A DNA stretch of 48,295 nt from Clostridia bacterium (GTDB lineage: Bacteria > Bacillota > Clostridia > Christensenellales > Aristaeellaceae): contig JAFQOD010000007.1 in assembly GCA_017395685.1 (NCBI GenBank), positions 1 to 48,295 of the forward strand. The letters run 5' to 3'. A model generated the notes under the pieces. It was not told the DNA's origin, did no database searches, and worked only from the letters and a program-made list of their open reading frames with translations. The position numbers and the translations under genes are program-made. Each line of letters starts with the position of its first letter. Within the stretch, counting starts at the first letter, position 1. Positions 40,850-47,946 of this stretch are shown piece by piece.

Positions 40850-40925
40850 GCCAATGTAGCTCAGTCGGTAGAGCAGCTGATTCGTAATCAGCAGGTCAGG
40901 GGTCCGAGTCCCCTCATTGGCTCCA
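40850..40925 (+). tRNA. tRNA-Thr (CGT)
   Basis: Acceptor GCCAATG/CATTGGC, anticodon stem CTGAT/ATCAG around TCGTA (CGT), GGTCCGAGTCC T-arm, encoded CCA. Confidence 0.95.
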
Positions 40926-40933
40926 TTTTTTTT

Positions 40934-41010
40934 CGAGGTGTAGCGCAGTTTGGTAGCGCGTTTGGTTCGGGACCAAAAGGCCGCGGGTTCGAATCCCGCC
41001 ACTTCGACCA
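40934..41010 (+). tRNA. tRNA-Pro (CGG)
   Basis: Acceptor CGAGGTG/CACTTCG, anticodon loop TTCGGGA (CGG), T-arm GGGTTCGAATCCC, encoded CCA. Its 3' half (GAATCCCGCCACTTCGACCA) recurs at 41161-41180. Confidence 0.95.
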
Positions 41011-41014
41011 TAAG

Positions 41015-41046
41015 AAAAGGATACCCCTTGGGGTGTCCTTTTTCTT
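41015..41046 (+). terminator. Terminator after tRNA-Pro
   Basis: AAAAGGATACCC pairs with GGGTGTCCTTTT around CTTG, then TCTT. Stem 41015-41042. Confidence 0.8.
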
Positions 41047-41056
41047 ATCTTTGATA

Positions 41057-41180
41057 GCGGGATTCGAAGGGTGCGTCCCTGCCTGCAGGGGAAAAACAGT
41101 CCGGTGGACTGTTTTTAGCACCCCGGGCTGGCGGCAGGGACGGCCTCGGCCCTGCCGGGCGAATCCCGCCACTTCGACCA
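41057..41180 (+). repeat. Structured element with tRNA-Pro-derived ends
   Basis: GCGGGATTCG (41057-41066) and CGAATCCCGC (41160-41169) are perfect inverted ends identical to the T-arm of tRNA-Pro, and the right end continues as an exact copy of the tRNA 3' tail (41161-41180). Inside, AAAAACAGTCC/GGACTGTTTTT is a perfect hairpin, GGGTGC (41069-41074) can pair with GCACCC (41118-41123), and CGTCCCTGCC (41074-41083) with GGCAGGGACG (41133-41142). It has no ORF. Confidence 0.65.
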
Positions 41181-41184
41181 TGGG

Positions 41185-41536: not shown

Positions 41537-43390
41537 TTATTCGGCGATATCATGCAGAATCGCCAGGATATCCGGCAGCACCAGAATATTATTGCGATCC
41601 ATCTGCTTATAATCCACCGGTTTTCCGGTCACGGCGCTTTCCCGGGCGGAGAGCTGATCCAGATCATCCCAGGGGATCAGGCAGGCATGGATCCGCTTTT
41701 CCATATCCTTGGTCAGCCGCAGGGAGGATTTGCCCTTTTCCTGCATTTCCCATTGATAGCGATCAATGCGCTGATCCAGCTCCCCTTCGCTCATGGGCCG
41801 GAAATTCATCACGTAATGGAATGCGCACCAGCGCAGATGCTCGGTAATGGAGAGATTTTCCAGCATTTCTCCCTGGGGAGGCCATTCCCCGGCTTCCACC
41901 TGCTGCATGGTTTTGCCGGCGGCGGTGAGGATCGCCTGATAAAAATCGGCGGAGGCACGGCTGCTCATTCTGCTGAAATAATCGCAGCGCATCCAGTTTT
42001 CCCAGGGCGTTTTTCCGGAATTGCGGCTGTAGGCATGGTTGATGGCCATGGCCATCCGGTCAATGCGCTCAAGATCCAGGGCGTCGCTGCCGTAGATGCT
42101 CAGATAGGTCTGCTCCGTATCCCCCGGCCGGGTGAATACCAGGCCCTGGCCGCTGCACTGCACTATGGCGGGCATGGCGCCCCGGTCTTTCAGCCAGCGG
42201 CCCATATCCCGGGCGATTTCCCGGTTTTCCTTTTCGCTGCCGGTGCACAGCACGATATAGCGGATGGTATCCTTCTGCTCTTTCAGGAAGGCATAAAAGG
42301 CTTCGGATTTGGCACTGATTTCATGAAAGCGGATATCATAATTTTTCCGTATCTCATGATCGTGCAGCATGCCGTTCTGGGGATGCTCATCGATAATATC
42401 CACCCGGAAGTCGCTGCCGCAGAACTGGCCGTTCATCAGCAGGGCGTCAAGGGCGGCCCGGCCCATCCGGCCAAAGCCGATGATCAGCCCATGGAAATTT
42501 TCCCGGGCCTTGGCGCTGCCGTCAAAGGGGATGGTTTCGCAGGGGGGGAGCTTTTGCATCATCAGCCGGGCCGCCAGCTCATATTCCCGGAAGGCCAGAA
42601 TGCTGCCGTAGCCGTATTTCTGATCGGATACAACCAGAGGGGCAATCTGTTCCTCATCCGCTTTGCGGATGAGCAGCCGGGTCTGCCTGGGCTGGACGGC
42701 GGCCTTTTCAAAGGCCCCCAGCAGATTGCAGATAAAGGAAAAATTCTTCGCTCCGTCTTCATGCAGCGCTGCAATTTCGATCTGCCGCTTGCCGGAACGG
42801 ATGCCCAGCTTTCGCAGCAGCCGTTCATCCGGATGATCGCCGGCATTTTCGGTAACGCCGCCAGCCGCCCGGATCGTCGCTTCTAGGGCAGGGCTGCCCT
42901 GGCCGAGGAATACCACGGACCGATGCATCACATCCATCTGCCGCTTTCCGTATTCCACCGATTCAGCATTCACAGCGTAGATCATCAGCAGTGTGCCCCT
43001 GCGCAAAAAGGCGATCCGGATCCTGCGCAGCAATCTGGCGCCCACAGCCGCCGCTGCAGAGCCGATGACGGCATAGAATGCCATGAAATGCACCACCCAG
43101 AACAGCACGATCACCCACTGCTTCTGAAACAGGGGGGCAGATTCGATGCTGCCCAGATCGCTGGAGCCGCCGATCATTCTGCATACGGCCATGATGGTAT
43201 GCAGAAGGGATACCAGGCTGAAGCCGGATACATGAGAATAGCCGTATCCATACAGGATCAGCCCGGAAACCACGGCGATGGAGCCGAATATGCTCATGAT
43301 CCGGTTCCTGATCCGGGTTTCCACTGCCAGATTCAGCACGGCTGCCAGGAAGCATGCCGCCGCAAGGAGGATGAATGAAATCGTAGTCAT
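41537..43390 (-). CDS. Membrane Rossmann protein with C-terminal RyR domain
   Basis: 617 residues. Transmembrane segments lie at ~4-21, ~33-50 and ~92-118, with a short hydrophobic helix (~58-72) between the second and third that could be a pore helix. Two nucleotide-binding-like regions follow, residues ~131-290 and a clear TrkA-N/RCK-type Rossmann at ~300-435 (GLIIGFGRMGRAALDALL, DIIDEH, IRYIVLCTGSEKENREIA). The C-terminus (512-612) reads EHLRWCAFHYVMNFRP, an inserted helix, HACLIPWDDLD and DYKQMDRNNILVLPDILA, the consensus of the RyR (ryanodine-receptor repeat) domain. AGGAG precedes the ATG. Function unknown; it may be a ligand-gated membrane effector. The TIR gene lies 74 bases upstream with no terminator between. 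Confidence 0.75.
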   Translation of the reverse strand: MTTISFILLAAACFLAAVLNLAVETRIRNRIMSIFGSIAVVSGLILYGYGYSHVSGFSLVSLLHTIMAVCRMIGGSSDLGSIESAPLFQKQWVIVLFWVVHFMAFYAVIGSAAAAVGARLLRRIRIAFLRRGTLLMIYAVNAESVEYGKRQMDVMHRSVVFLGQGSPALEATIRAAGGVTENAGDHPDERLLRKLGIRSGKRQIEIAALHEDGAKNFSFICNLLGAFEKAAVQPRQTRLLIRKADEEQIAPLVVSDQKYGYGSILAFREYELAARLMMQKLPPCETIPFDGSAKARENFHGLIIGFGRMGRAALDALLMNGQFCGSDFRVDIIDEHPQNGMLHDHEIRKNYDIRFHEISAKSEAFYAFLKEQKDTIRYIVLCTGSEKENREIARDMGRWLKDRGAMPAIVQCSGQGLVFTRPGDTEQTYLSIYGSDALDLERIDRMAMAINHAYSRNSGKTPWENWMRCDYFSRMSSRASADFYQAILTAAGKTMQQVEAGEWPPQGEMLENLSITEHLRWCAFHYVMNFRPMSEGELDQRIDRYQWEMQEKGKSSLRLTKDMEKRIHACLIPWDDLDQLSARESAVTGKPVDYKQMDRNNILVLPDILAILHDIAE

Positions 43391-43464
43391 GGTAACTCCT
43401 GTTTCATTATGTATTCAATGCCTGCATGCATGGGGCCGCAGACAGGGGAAAAAGTGCGCCGGGA

Positions 43465-46400
43465 TCAATACAGGGTATCCTGCACAATATCAATCAACTG
43501 GGAGGTGGCGGGAATGGCAAAGGCCATCAGACGATACTGATTGGTATTCACATCATAGCGGCATACGTATACCTTGTTTTGCTTGGCATCGAAAAATTTG
43601 AAATCCTTGATGGTAAACAGATCCTCCCAGGATCTGGTATCCACGCACAGTCCGTTAAGACCGGAGCGGATATACAATCTGTTGTTCTGCTGATCCGGCC
43701 AGACGGAGAAGGCCCGGGCGTCAACGGAGCCGCTGAAGAGGGTGCGGAAAACCAGCTGCTGGGTATCCATCTGATAGACCATGAACTGGCCGTCCCTGGT
43801 AAGGAGATAGACATACTGATCATCCAGGAGGATCCCCGTTTTCAGAATGGAAACCGGATGCATGCCCACGGGGATCGTGCAGAAAAGCCCGGCCGTTTTG
43901 CTGTCATAGACCCGGATGCACTTATCCTGATCATACACCGCAAACAGGGGCAGCTTTTCACCGAATGCCATCAGCCTGTCATCCGTGCCCCGGGCGGCGT
44001 CGGGAATGCGGATCCATTTTTCCGCCGCCAGATCATAAACAATGAACTGCTCCATTTCCCTTATATCTTCGGAGGCAAAGCCGCTGAGGATGATCAGCCC
44101 GTTTTTCCCTGTGTGGAGCATGGAGAACAGATCCAGATCATTCCGGGAAACGGGATGCACATCCTGAGGAAGGGGAACGGAAATGGCATTTTCCCCATCC
44201 AGCCAGTAGGTAAGGGTATGATTGCTGCTTTGGGCGGAAAGGATTTTTCCCCCTGCGGCCAATTGGACGGCGTCTGCCCGGGAGAGGGTGGCCAGCAGAT
44301 TGAAATCCTCCGTGGCGGTCATGACGATTACTTCTTTTTCGGAAAGCGGGGTGATGCTGCCGTCCAGGCCGATGCGGCAGATGCCCTTTTCATCCGAGCA
44401 GGCAAGCAGATGCTTTCCATCGCCGGTGAGATAATACTGATCGTAATCGGCGAAATTCCCTTCCATTCTGATGGAAGCCATGGATTGGGCGTTGGTATCC
44501 ACCACATTCAGAAGGAAGCCGGTATCCTGCCAGACAGGGCCCAGCAGCGCCTGCCCCTGGGAGTTGAGGCAGATAAAGTTACCGGGATCTGTGGTGAGTG
44601 CCCCCTCCGTTTTCACGGTTACCGCTTCCGGCAGCACCGGATTGGGCAGCACAGACGCCACATAAGCGGTGCATCGGTCCTCTGCCAGATAGGCGATGCT
44701 GCCGCCCCCTTCTTCCAGCGCCGGCATGACAAAGCCCTGGATCCTGTTATCGCTGATATGGGCCCGGATCAGGCCGTCCCTGAAAAAGAGCATTTCCGGG
44801 GTATCGGGCAGATTGACGATGGCGGAATAGAAATTGGAATCATGCAGGCCGGAGGCATTGCTCCATGCTGCGGCGCAGTAGCCGTCCTCCTGGGCATAGC
44901 CGAAGAGACCATGATCCATCAGATACAGGGCGATGATATCGGCATCCGTTTCCCCGGATGCTTTGATTTTTCCGCTGGCCTTATCCAGCACGATCAGTTG
45001 ATTGGCCACGGCCAGTACGACGCCGGTCTGATCGGAAACGGCCAGGCATTTTTCGTTTGCTGCCAGGTAATTGGCCAGATCGAAGGAATTTTCCCAAAGC
45101 AGGCTGCCTTTTTTCACATCAAAGCACTGCAGATGCAGCGTTTGGTGATTCCGGCAGCTGACCACAAGGGCCTGATCCTTGCCCAGGGCAAAGGTACGCA
45201 GGAAATCGTAGGCGCTGGTCAGGCCGTCATTTGGGATCAGGGAAAGGCTTTCCGCCTGAAGATCAATTGTATACAGCAGGGCCTGGGAAATACCTTTTTC
45301 TGTATTGAAAACGGATCCCGTAAAGAGATCGGGGCTGAGGAAGGCGCCGCTGGTGCCTGCCTGATAATCCCGATCAAAGGCAGTGCCGTCATATAATTCG
45401 TAGGTGACGGATCGCTTCAGCAGGGGAATCCTCTGCTGCAGGCTGCCATCCCGGGCAGAAAGGGTAACAAAGCTGTATTCATACCGGGGATCCGTTACAT
45501 CTTTTTGGAAAGCGCTGAAATAACGGGATTCAATATAGCCGATTTTCTGGCTTTCTTCCTCAAAATAGAGGCCGCTTTCAATCTTGATATCGAAATTCGT
45601 CTGCCATGCGGTATGGCCTGTGGCGGCCTGGAGGCCGGAGAGGATGCCGTCATAATAACAGATGATCAGGCCGCTTTTTTCATCATAAAAGAGCTGGGGA
45701 TCTGCATTCTCGATCCGGTAGATATCTTCATGCTCCGGCAGCTTGGCTTCCCAGAGAAGCAGGCCGGATGCAGCGTCAAAACTGCTGACTGTGCCGTACA
45801 TATCAATGGAAAAGAGACGGCTGCCATCGGCATTGAAGGCCATTTTTTCAATGGGGGAATGATGGGGCAGCGCAGTTTTGGTCAGCAGCAGGGTATCGGA
45901 GCGTTCCTCCAGCACATCAACCGTCTGAAAGAGCACCCGCTCTGCCGGGGCATAATAGGGCCGCTCCATTTCCGGGGAATAGAGGGCGTTGCTGGCATGC
46001 TTCATGGCCTCCGCTGCATCCCCGTTTTTGATGGCCTCTTCTGCTTTGCCGGCCAGCAGGCCGGATTCCCTGTTGAGGGCCAGCTCGATGGCGGCGGTCA
46101 ATTGCTGGTTTTTCTGGGTCAGCTGCTGGTTTTTGGCAAAAAGCATTCCGATAAAGCTGCCGGCCAGCAATAAGGAAAGGGCGGCCAGCGCCCCGATGCG
46201 CTTCATCCGGCGGGTTTTTTCCCGCTGCACCAGCCCGTCATAGGAGCAGCCCAGCATGCCCGCATACAGCTTTTTGATCTGGGCCTTGGTTTTCTTGAGG
46301 GAGGAAGCGATGGTATCGGCCCGCACATCCAGGGCCAGGGGCTCCACATCCTGATACTGCCCGGTTACCTTGTTGAGCACGTGGGTCAGCTGCCGGGGGA

Positions 46401-46749
46401 ATACATCCCCGGGCTCGCCGTCCGCCAGCACCACAAAGGCATCCTCCGCATCATGATGCTCCAGGAAATAATTGATTTCCCGTGCAACCCAGGGCGATTC
46501 CCTGGCCTCCGGGGAACAGATAACGATCAGATGCCGGGATGCATCCAGGGCGGTGCAGATGCTTTCCGTCAGATCGCTGGAGATGGGCAGTTCCTCCTCA
46601 TCCCGGAAGACGATGCCCAGCTTTTTGCCATCCTTGCGCAGGGATTTGGGGATGATATAATTTTCAATCAGCGTATGCACCTGCTTGGCAATGGCCGCAT
46701 CCCGCGGCGCATGCTTATAGCTGATAAAGGCCATGTATGTTCGTTCCAT
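43465..46749 (-). CDS. TIR-domain protein with transmembrane helix and extracytoplasmic beta-propeller
   Basis: 1094 residues. The TIR domain (4-~155) opens YMAFISYKHAPRDAAIAKQV and contains FRDEEELP and SPWVAREINYF; W87-x-x-x-E91 places a candidate catalytic glutamate as in NAD-cleaving TIRs. After basic residues (KTRRMKR, ~178-184) comes one transmembrane helix (185-205), then a coiled coil (NQQLTQKNQQLTAAIELAL), TPR-like helices (~235-260) and ~830 residues of WD40/PQQ-like blades (for example FNADGSRLFSIDMYGTVSSFDAASGLLLWEAKL). The positive-inside rule puts TIR in the cytoplasm and the propeller outside. GGGAGG precedes the ATG at 46749; the open frame beyond it is not coding. Likely a sensor that controls TIR activity. 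Confidence 0.85.
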   Translation of the reverse strand: MERTYMAFISYKHAPRDAAIAKQVHTLIENYIIPKSLRKDGKKLGIVFRDEEELPISSDLTESICTALDASRHLIVICSPEARESPWVAREINYFLEHHDAEDAFVVLADGEPGDVFPRQLTHVLNKVTGQYQDVEPLALDVRADTIASSLKKTKAQIKKLYAGMLGCSYDGLVQREKTRRMKRIGALAALSLLLAGSFIGMLFAKNQQLTQKNQQLTAAIELALNRESGLLAGKAEEAIKNGDAAEAMKHASNALYSPEMERPYYAPAERVLFQTVDVLEERSDTLLLTKTALPHHSPIEKMAFNADGSRLFSIDMYGTVSSFDAASGLLLWEAKLPEHEDIYRIENADPQLFYDEKSGLIICYYDGILSGLQAATGHTAWQTNFDIKIESGLYFEEESQKIGYIESRYFSAFQKDVTDPRYEYSFVTLSARDGSLQQRIPLLKRSVTYELYDGTAFDRDYQAGTSGAFLSPDLFTGSVFNTEKGISQALLYTIDLQAESLSLIPNDGLTSAYDFLRTFALGKDQALVVSCRNHQTLHLQCFDVKKGSLLWENSFDLANYLAANEKCLAVSDQTGVVLAVANQLIVLDKASGKIKASGETDADIIALYLMDHGLFGYAQEDGYCAAAWSNASGLHDSNFYSAIVNLPDTPEMLFFRDGLIRAHISDNRIQGFVMPALEEGGGSIAYLAEDRCTAYVASVLPNPVLPEAVTVKTEGALTTDPGNFICLNSQGQALLGPVWQDTGFLLNVVDTNAQSMASIRMEGNFADYDQYYLTGDGKHLLACSDEKGICRIGLDGSITPLSEKEVIVMTATEDFNLLATLSRADAVQLAAGGKILSAQSSNHTLTYWLDGENAISVPLPQDVHPVSRNDLDLFSMLHTGKNGLIILSGFASEDIREMEQFIVYDLAAEKWIRIPDAARGTDDRLMAFGEKLPLFAVYDQDKCIRVYDSKTAGLFCTIPVGMHPVSILKTGILLDDQYVYLLTRDGQFMVYQMDTQQLVFRTLFSGSVDARAFSVWPDQQNNRLYIRSGLNGLCVDTRSWEDLFTIKDFKFFDAKQNKVYVCRYDVNTNQYRLMAFAIPATSQLIDIVQDTLY

Positions 46750-46852
46750 GGGATATGCCTCCCGTCGCTTGTGGAAAGTGAATGATTTTTTCCTGCGATC
46801 CGCCGGCCACCCCGGCGGTGCATCCTGATGTGCATAAATTTTCCTATTATTT

Positions 46853-46881
46853 ATTATACATGATATTTGCGCCCGCCACAA
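46853..46881 (-). promoter_or_regulatory. Promoter of the TIR/RyR operon
   Basis: Minus-strand TTGTGG (46876-46881), 17-base spacer, TATAAT (46853-46858), extended TG. The ~95-base leader contains a GC hairpin (CCGCCGG/CCGGCGG, 46801-46819). Confidence 0.65.
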
Positions 46882-46975
46882 CTGCCAGACGGGGGGATTT
46901 TTATCAAAATCAGATCATGGGCAGATGCATAAATGGAGACGGCCTGGTATTGATTTCCGCAAACCGGCAATTTTC

Positions 46976-47043: not shown

Positions 47044-47946
47044 ATGAAGCTTACCAGGATCATTGCCTGTTTACTCCTGATGATGATGCTTGCTGCCTGT
47101 GCATCGGCCGGCGAAGAGGAAATTACCGTTCCGCCTTTTGCGGATTTTTCCGAGAAATTCGGGGATCTGTTCCTGGAAGAAGGGGAAGAAATCATCCAGG
47201 AAGAATTGATTTACCGCAGCCAGGATATCTATATTGAAATCACGCCCATGCGCAGATTGGCGTCGGATATTTACGTGGCGGATATTTATGTGCGCAGTGT
47301 GGAAAATTTCCAGCGCGCCTATGGTAAAAATAAATGGAAGAGCACTGCACAGAAAGTAAAGGTGATTTCACAGGCGAATGACGCCATTCTTGGCATGACC
47401 GGCGATAACAGCCATAATCTTACCGCTGGCTGGGTGATTGGGAATGGAAAGGTTCTGCGGAAAAGCAGCAATCGGAAGAGGGATCTTTGCCTGATCTACC
47501 GGGACGGCACCATGGAAACCATTGAAGCCCAGAATGTTGATAATAACTGGCTCAAGGAAAAGGCGGCCACCAATGAAATCTGGCATTGCTTCCTTTTCGG
47601 CCCCGCCCTTCTGGATGCGGAGGGAAAGGCAAAAACCAAATTCAATTCCAATGTAGGGCCTGCCAATCCCCGTTCGGTCATCGGTTATTATGAGCCCGGG
47701 CATTATTGCTTTGTTCAGATCGATGGGCGGGGGGCCAAGAGCAAGCTGGAACCCAAGAAAAAAAGCACGGGCCTGAAGCTGAAGGATCTTTCCCTTCTGA
47801 TGGAGGAACTGGGCTGCAAGGCGGCCTATAATCTGGATGGAGGCCAATCCTCCATGATGTATTTCGGTAATGATCTGATTTCTGTTCCTTATAATAACGG
47901 CCGCTCTGCAGGGGATATCGTCATTATCAAGGAATTGCAGGAATGA
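47044..47946 (+). CDS. Phosphodiester glycosidase (NAGPA-type) lipoprotein
   Basis: 300 residues. The signal peptide ends in the lipobox LAAC (Cys19-20 region, LLMMMLAACAS), so it is probably anchored on the outer membrane face. The body matches the NAGPA/DUF2233 fold: YVADIYVRS, ILGMTGDNSHN, GPALLDAEGK, NPRSVIGYYEPGHYCFVQIDGR, and the closing NLDGGQSSMMYFG with GDIVIIKE, where Asp-Gly-Gly is conserved. Related enzymes cleave sugar-1-phosphodiesters; in Bacillota they may act on wall polymers. AGCGGAGGA precedes the ATG. Monocistronic. Confidence 0.85.
   Translation: MKLTRIIACLLLMMMLAACASAGEEEITVPPFADFSEKFGDLFLEEGEEIIQEELIYRSQDIYIEITPMRRLASDIYVADIYVRSVENFQRAYGKNKWKSTAQKVKVISQANDAILGMTGDNSHNLTAGWVIGNGKVLRKSSNRKRDLCLIYRDGTMETIEAQNVDNNWLKEKAATNEIWHCFLFGPALLDAEGKAKTKFNSNVGPANPRSVIGYYEPGHYCFVQIDGRGAKSKLEPKKKSTGLKLKDLSLLMEELGCKAAYNLDGGQSSMMYFGNDLISVPYNNGRSAGDIVIIKELQE

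Follow-up and report, generated by a model that had tools for sequence, protein, structure and literature searches.

A tandem gene pair that may couple a bacterial TIR receptor to a membrane protein with a ryanodine-receptor-type domain

Results

A TIR gene and the R1 gene lie in tandem

We analyzed a 48,295-nucleotide stretch of DNA from a Clostridia bacterium (assembly GCA_017395685.1, contig JAFQOD010000007.1), hereafter the window, in which two minus-strand genes lie in tandem. The first encodes a protein that joins a TIR domain, a predicted transmembrane (TM) segment and a beta-propeller; the second encodes a membrane protein of 617 residues with a C-terminal RyR-type domain, which we call R1 to keep it apart from animal RyR1. 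An earlier reading of the letters, made without database searches (the sequence-only reading), had proposed that the propeller senses something outside the cell, that the TIR domain makes a nucleotide signal and that the RyR protein answers at the membrane. Both genes were found as open frames at the coordinates claimed for them (Table 1), and the TIR-R1 gene pair is present in some bacteria, a cow-rumen species included. By eye, good ribosome-binding sites precede both starts. The gap between the genes counts 74 bases, with no terminator-like site on the minus strand, as had been claimed. The promoter that the two genes were said to share, at 46853-46881, fared less well: it is a 9/12 match, and the region holds 5 such sites against 5.1 in shuffled sequence.

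Table 1 Features of the TIR-R1 locus (positions in the window)
Feature	Position	Strand	Basis
TIR-TM-beta-propeller gene, 1094 aa	43465..46749	-	reading frame, Pfam
TIR domain, ~residues 5-117	46399..46737	-	Pfam TIR_2 8-109, ThsB_TIR 8-98; blastp to Butyrivibrio TIR from residue 5
Codon of E91, predicted catalytic Glu of W-x-x-x-E	46477..46479	-	motif and TIR alignment
Predicted TM segment, residues 187-205	46135..46191	-	hydropathy and charge
Beta-propeller part, ~residues 290-1094, predicted outside	43468..45882	-	PQQ_2 and related propeller models; topology
Ribosome-binding site GGGAGG of TIR gene	46758..46763	-	sequence
74-base intergenic gap, AGGAG ribosome-binding site at 43396-43400	43391..43464	-	sequence
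R1 gene, 617 aa: membrane N-terminus, Rossmann/TrkA-like part, C-terminal RyR-type domain	41537..43390	-	frame, alignment, profiles
R1 hydrophobic N-terminal part, residues 1-130	43001..43390	-	hydropathy and alignment
R1 conserved loop, residues 63-86, invariant G75; possible degenerate pore loop (hypothesis)	43133..43204	-	conservation
R1 G-F-G-R-M-G, residues 305-310, nucleotide-binding-like Rossmann motif	42461..42478	-	conservation
R1 RyR-type domain, ~residues 505-612, with H518, W521, H568, D593/D598	41555..41878	-	profiles, alignment
Weak promoter-like match, not above chance	46860..46888	-	shuffle comparison

R1 belongs to the RyR family by profile comparison

R1 is built from a hydrophobic N-terminus, a Rossmann/TrkA-like part and a diverged C-terminal RyR-type domain. 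On its own, window R1 gave a single Pfam match, to NAD_binding_9 (E 0.12). TrkA_N had no Pfam match in it and fell below the cut-off in relatives (E 3.2e-4, 0.083 and 0.07). At the Pfam cut-off, the RyR family PF02026 was found neither in window R1 nor anywhere in the window genome (G000) or in the genome G021.

The kinship of R1 became visible through R2, an R1 paralogue that joins a K+-channel filter and a RyR domain. All three R2 proteins scanned carry Ion_trans_2 and PF02026 in one chain. The R2 profile matches solved ryanodine-receptor (R12) domains with an E of 9.5e-26, and in profile searches its pore matches KcsA and other K+ channels. Of 19 R2 proteins, 18 have the K+ filter [TS]VG[YF]GD, and the remaining one, whose start was trimmed, was not judged. 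Profiles of full-length R1 and R2 align over most of their length (probability 99.8), and the R1 C-terminal profile finds R2 with a probability of 97.4 and an E of 1.1e-11. Independently of R2, a PF02026 protein from an Arcobacter plasmid finds the C-terminus of a Butyrivibrio R1 (27%, E 3e-5). When the R1 C-terminus is compared directly with small RyR proteins, the match is weak (probability 83.6 over 32 columns), so the case for the domain in R1 rests mainly on R2 as a bridge. With these comparisons, membership of the R1 C-terminus in the RyR family is confirmed at the level of profiles, and the sequence-only reading, which had drawn the domain at 512-612, is borne out indirectly. A chance resemblance is ruled out by the R2 profile alignments, the match of R2 to ryanodine receptors and the Arcobacter-Butyrivibrio match.

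R2 was present at 20 of the 25 loci of our first survey (described below), one copy being truncated at a contig end. The window genome, which is 96% complete, and that of G021 (84%) yielded no R2 match.

Pocket and Rossmann residues are conserved

We next compared R1 and R2 with phage RyR-domain proteins, which, according to an excerpt of PMC13232231, bind 2'- and 3'-cyclic ADP-ribose (2'cADPR and 3'cADPR). The founding member, RyDEP, cleaves both and contacts its ligand through H75, W78, H100 and D117 (PMC13232231, excerpt). R2 proteins have the same residues at the same spacing (H 19/19, W 19/19, H 19/19, D 18/19). In R1 the counterparts are H518 and W521 (each 24/24), H568 (18/24, with Q in the other 6) and D593 and D598 (both 24/24), with a longer stretch between residues than in RyDEP or R2. 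Outside the pocket, G305, G307 and G310 of the Rossmann motif are invariant (24/24). In the conserved loop of the N-terminal part, G75 is found in 24/24 sequences and R71 and D78 in 22/24 each, and M72 is near-invariant. The alignment of 24 R1 proteins and the tree leave out G544, whose R1 frame is interrupted by a stop codon close to its end (L098); the adjacent R2 and TIR frames there are open.

The TIR proteins have a predicted Toll-like layout

The window TIR protein matches Pfam TIR_2 (E 4.7e-9) and the propeller family PQQ_2 (E 8.2e-13), and has a single hydrophobic segment by hydropathy, at residues 187-205, in agreement with the architecture first proposed. Its TIR domain scores 28.7 bits with ThsB_TIR, above the cut-off of 21.2, and by sequence is a ThsB-kind TIR. 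We aligned 23 TIRs, those of 22 linked loci and of plasmid pNP243, leaving out the second TIR-like gene of L039, which has no W-x-x-x-E. W87 and E91 were kept in 23/23; the motif reads W87-V-A-R-E91 in the window and is thus intact, as had been reported.

In all 23 proteins the TIR domain is followed by one clear hydrophobic segment. Because the TIR side of this segment is the more positive in 22/23, the C-terminal repeats are predicted to lie outside the cell, and the outer placement of the propeller suggested earlier fits the positive-inside rule. These repeats differ from protein to protein: Pfam identified Sel1 in 11, BspA-type leucine-rich repeats (LRRs) in 5, a PQQ propeller in 2 and TPR in 1. 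The pNP243 TIR protein matches propeller models weakly, and some of the remaining partners are cut short. By prediction, then, from charge in 22/23 and repeats by Pfam, the proteins share a Toll-like layout of inner TIR, one TM segment and outer repeat sensor. Placed on the R1 tree, the TIR types require 8 changes, against a possible minimum of 4 and 12.6 with shuffled labels. TIR types are therefore largely passed on by descent, with some exchanges around a single R1 family.

Relatives of the window TIR occur in 15 of 100 genomes. The window genome encodes three more TIR proteins (L141 8040-13697, L140 7077-9581), two of them in tandem, whose frames open with a cysteine-rich, zinc-ribbon-like stretch.

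R1 genes are frequently linked to TIR genes

Recurrence of the pair across genomes had been set beforehand as a test that could refute the sequence-only reading. Over two surveys, with G241 counted once, 32 of 48 full-length R1 loci had a TIR_2 gene no more than 5 kb away, where about 0.4 were expected. The first survey yielded 25 full-length loci: 23 from 250 family genomes, one (G068) from 100 relatives and one (G241) from a phylum sample of 398. Here 22/25 were linked, against 0.23 expected from TIR gene numbers and genome sizes; G544 was counted despite the stop in its R1 frame. Two of the three misses are contig ends (G032 and G663) and one, G241, is real. In 13 of the 22 linked loci, 20-45 bases separate the start of the TIR match from the R1 match.

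The second survey covered Butyrivibrio, the genus of G241. R1 matches were found in 28/79 genomes, and 24 full-length loci in 23 genomes remained once the fragmentary R1 of G1090 and weak matches were excluded. TIR_2 lay within 5 kb in 10 of these 24 (0.17 expected). Each of the 14 genomes with an unlinked locus encodes, elsewhere, a TIR-TM protein related to that of the window (blastp E 2.3e-37 or better) with W-x-x-x-E. A named pair is available on plasmid pNP243 of Butyrivibrio fibrisolvens D1 (NZ_CP146964.1), where WP_167562754.1 (TIR) is followed by WP_073389489.1 (R1, annotated as a hypothetical protein); it would be good bench material. In the genus of the window itself, a close R1 was found in only 2/29 genomes, plus one weak match.

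Among the Butyrivibrio stretches (L269-L291 and L111), one large similarity cluster, which includes an EAL-domain protein of pNP243, touches 12 of the 24 R1 stretches; this may simply reflect how common such genes are.

Discussion

Proposed mechanism

In the mechanism that we propose, the TIR protein would span the membrane, the propeller facing outward and the TIR domain lying within the cell, as its one hydrophobic segment and the flanking charges suggest. Once the outer part is engaged, the TIR domain would convert NAD+ to an ADP-ribose-type signal, a step to which the intact W-x-x-x-E points. R1 would bind this signal in its C-terminal RyR-type pocket, by homology to the phage proteins that bind 2'cADPR and 3'cADPR, and would then alter ion flow across the membrane via its RCK-like part, a step to which the K+ filter of R2 and the Rossmann parts point. 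In relatives with R2, that protein would bind the signal as well. Because R2, a K+ channel that carries a RyR domain of its own, accompanies R1 in most family relatives, the likely output would be K+ flux with a loss of membrane potential; in the window, R1 would act without R2. Anatomy, homology, residue conservation, linkage and exchange of TIR types together argue for such a receptor-signal-effector pair, with activity predicted from sequence, and we judge the whole chain, from sensor through TIR signal and RyR pocket to ion flow, to be evenly poised between right and wrong. Its likeliest purpose, we infer, is arrest of the infected or stressed cell. The earlier interpretation is thus supported in part: recurrence, RyR kinship, the TIR glutamate and the outer sensor stand, and the promoter does not.

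Several observations weigh against this mechanism. Its weakest link is a pore in R1 itself, which is unproven: a TVGYGD-type K+ selectivity filter is absent from R1, and, taken by itself, the R1 N-terminus fails to match the R2 pore (probability 27.6), leaving pore homology unsupported by that part. The idea that R1 is an ordinary K+ channel found no support on the same two grounds. Structure models were too poor for a fold search (mean pLDDT, the predicted local distance difference test, of 38.4 for R1 and 47.1 for its last 188 residues). Among the phage homologues tested, 6/8 bound signals, and cleavage is reported for the founding protein only (PMC13232231, excerpt). As to linkage, 14 of the 24 Butyrivibrio R1 loci, G241 included, have no TIR_2 within 5 kb, and several of these genes lie in housekeeping neighborhoods common to different species. 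No RyR match was found in the stretches fetched for ten TIR-propeller relatives without a known R1 (L127-L136) or at seven other TIR loci in R1 genomes (L138, L139, L142-L146). R1 is frequently accompanied by a TIR gene and TIR receptors are frequently without R1; the association is weaker in this reverse direction. Finally, neither W-x-x-x-E nor a Pfam TIR match was found in the extra TIR-like gene next to R1 in L039; the simple W-x-x-x-E pattern is also missing from the TIRs that accompany R1-like genes in L042 and L044.

Alternative readings

With lower probability, the pair could be a bacterial Toll-type receptor with a RyR-gated channel, in which the outer repeat sensor acts through the inner TIR and a cyclic ADP-ribose isomer opens a RyR/RCK channel formed by R1 alone or with R2. 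Breakdown of the signal in the same pocket might, in addition, return the system to its resting state. Nucleotide gating through a RyR domain would in that case not be confined to animals.

Alternatively, R1 could be an ordinary membrane component of a vertically inherited, non-immune envelope or stress pathway to which TIR proteins are among several inputs. The orphan R1 genes in shared Butyrivibrio neighborhoods, the sensors predicted outside and the lack of clear defense genes among 76 neighboring proteins scanned without a control would fit such a pathway. We nonetheless consider it unlikely, since close R1 genes are so sparse in the genus of the window, the pair occurs on a plasmid (pNP243), TIR types have been exchanged, and plasmid RyR genes lie beside restriction and Pycsar-type genes (see below).

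A third account, in which R1 answers loss of NAD+, strikes us as quite improbable. Here the TIR would be a plain NADase, the Rossmann/RCK part would sense the NAD(H)/ADPR balance and the RyR domain would be mainly structural. The invariant Rossmann glycines speak for it, as does the RCK channel GsuK, which is activated by ADP and NAD+ (PMC3510474, excerpt), although a structural role would not need the pocket residues that are kept across R1 and R2. We give least credence to R1 as an off switch, whose RyR domain would cleave or soak up the TIR signal like RyDEP and whose membrane part would only position it: the RyDEP catalytic pair H75 and D117 does have counterparts in H518 and D593 or D598 in 24/24 R1 proteins, but cleavage is reported for the founding RyDEP only (PMC13232231, excerpt) and the partner R2 is a K+ channel.

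Relation to known systems

Thoeris systems are divided into defined types, and their known effector domains are of the SLOG or Macro kind. The resemblance to Thoeris is that a TIR enzyme (ThsB) adjoins a gene for a membrane or NAD-linked effector, and that the window TIR passes the ThsB_TIR cut-off. In contrast to Thoeris, the effector here has a RyR domain, Pfam finding neither SLOG nor Macro in R1 at E up to 1, while the TIR belongs to what is predicted to be a transmembrane receptor. A Thoeris type VI is named in PMC13232231 (excerpt). The phage RyDEP/PF02026 proteins belong to the same domain family, and counterparts of their four pocket residues occur in both R1 and R2; whereas the phage proteins remove the signal (PMC13232231, excerpt), the domain here is on a host membrane protein beside a TIR gene. 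Animal ryanodine receptors are related to R2 through the R12 match given above, but R2 has a K+-type pore and an RCK-like part, and the rest of the animal receptor is unmatched among the matches listed. RCK-gated K+ channels such as GsuK share with R2 the K+-channel pore and a Rossmann-like part behind it; what sets R2 apart is its RyR domain at the C-terminus and its linkage to TIR genes. Toll-like receptors resemble the TIR proteins in the predicted outer repeat sensor (LRRs in 5/23), one TM segment and inner TIR; the bacterial proteins differ in their reversed chain order, other repeat types and enzyme-type W-x-x-x-E, and we do not claim common descent. The TIR-like DUF4062 NADases (Swarozyc) bear a likeness through a DUF4062 gene that lies behind TrkA_N and RyR genes on an Arcobacter plasmid; RyR goes unmentioned in the excerpt of PMC13174449 that describes them.

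Among the papers searched, the one relevant source on bacterial RyR domains with TIR signals was PMC13232231, next to a review on axon degeneration and a Pseudomonas putida design study. It describes no host TIR-RyR gene pair in the excerpt covered; a 2025 TIR preprint and a 2015 nucleotide-centric survey lie outside that coverage. The TIR-R1 pair may be an undescribed signal-to-ion-channel relay. If the mechanism holds, a nucleotide-gated ion channel would join the outputs of TIR signaling, and the bacterial RyR domain would have a host role beside its phage counter-defense role. It would also offer a small system, amenable to purified proteins, in which to ask whether RyR domains respond directly to cADPR-type signals, a long-standing question. 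The TIR receptors with their exchangeable outer repeats would provide a simple comparison for Toll-like receptors.

Flanks of the pair and wider RyR context

The flanks of the nearest R1 relative differ from those of the window. For the flank gene at 47044, orthologues (61-76%) exist in four congeners, and TIR and R1 matches are absent from the stretches fetched there; comparison around the pair found no clean empty site. Genes for tRNA-Thr and tRNA-Pro (40850-41010) separate the end of the pair from the gene that comes next. The 221-base stretch at 40966-41181 has an 88% similar counterpart in G021, 2.3 kb away from R1; tRNA calling gave no tRNA at that place.

We scanned 76 of 110 listed neighbor proteins, with no control, and saw scattered single matches and no clear defense genes. 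PADLOC matches of the window proteins (E 0.0032 and 0.0044) were too weak and were set aside, and Protein Data Bank (PDB) searches with both window proteins and the R1 profile gave nothing useful. The viral contigs searched contained no R1 relative and, for R2, just K+-channel pieces. An R1-like frame is present on an unannotated record labeled phage, an unverified contig from human feces (MT835673.1; L150 4786-6876).

In a sample of the class, PF02026 was found in 26/391 genomes, with TIR_2 within 5 kb in 9/26 and not in 17. Beyond this sample we looked at three plasmid cases, which do not amount to a survey. On an Arcobacter plasmid (CP146529.1; L148 5940-9663), TrkA_N, RyR and DUF4062 genes lie in a row near an integrase gene and a type I restriction gene. 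PMC13174449 (excerpt) identifies DUF4062 proteins as TIR-like NADases, and the row is possibly a parallel system with another such enzyme. A Methylobacterium plasmid (NZ_CP107533.1; L149) encodes an AAA-RyR protein near a SIR2-family gene. On a Priestia aryabhattai plasmid (NZ_CP128553.1; L312 1656-9865), four genes occur together, for a Pycsar effector, a cyclase with a TPR-S match, a RyR protein and a TIR protein, the RyR gene lying between the Pycsar-effector/cyclase cluster and the TIR gene. In another lineage (L212 6329-9035), the gene of a TIR protein with BspA-type LRRs comes close behind that of a RyR-domain protein.

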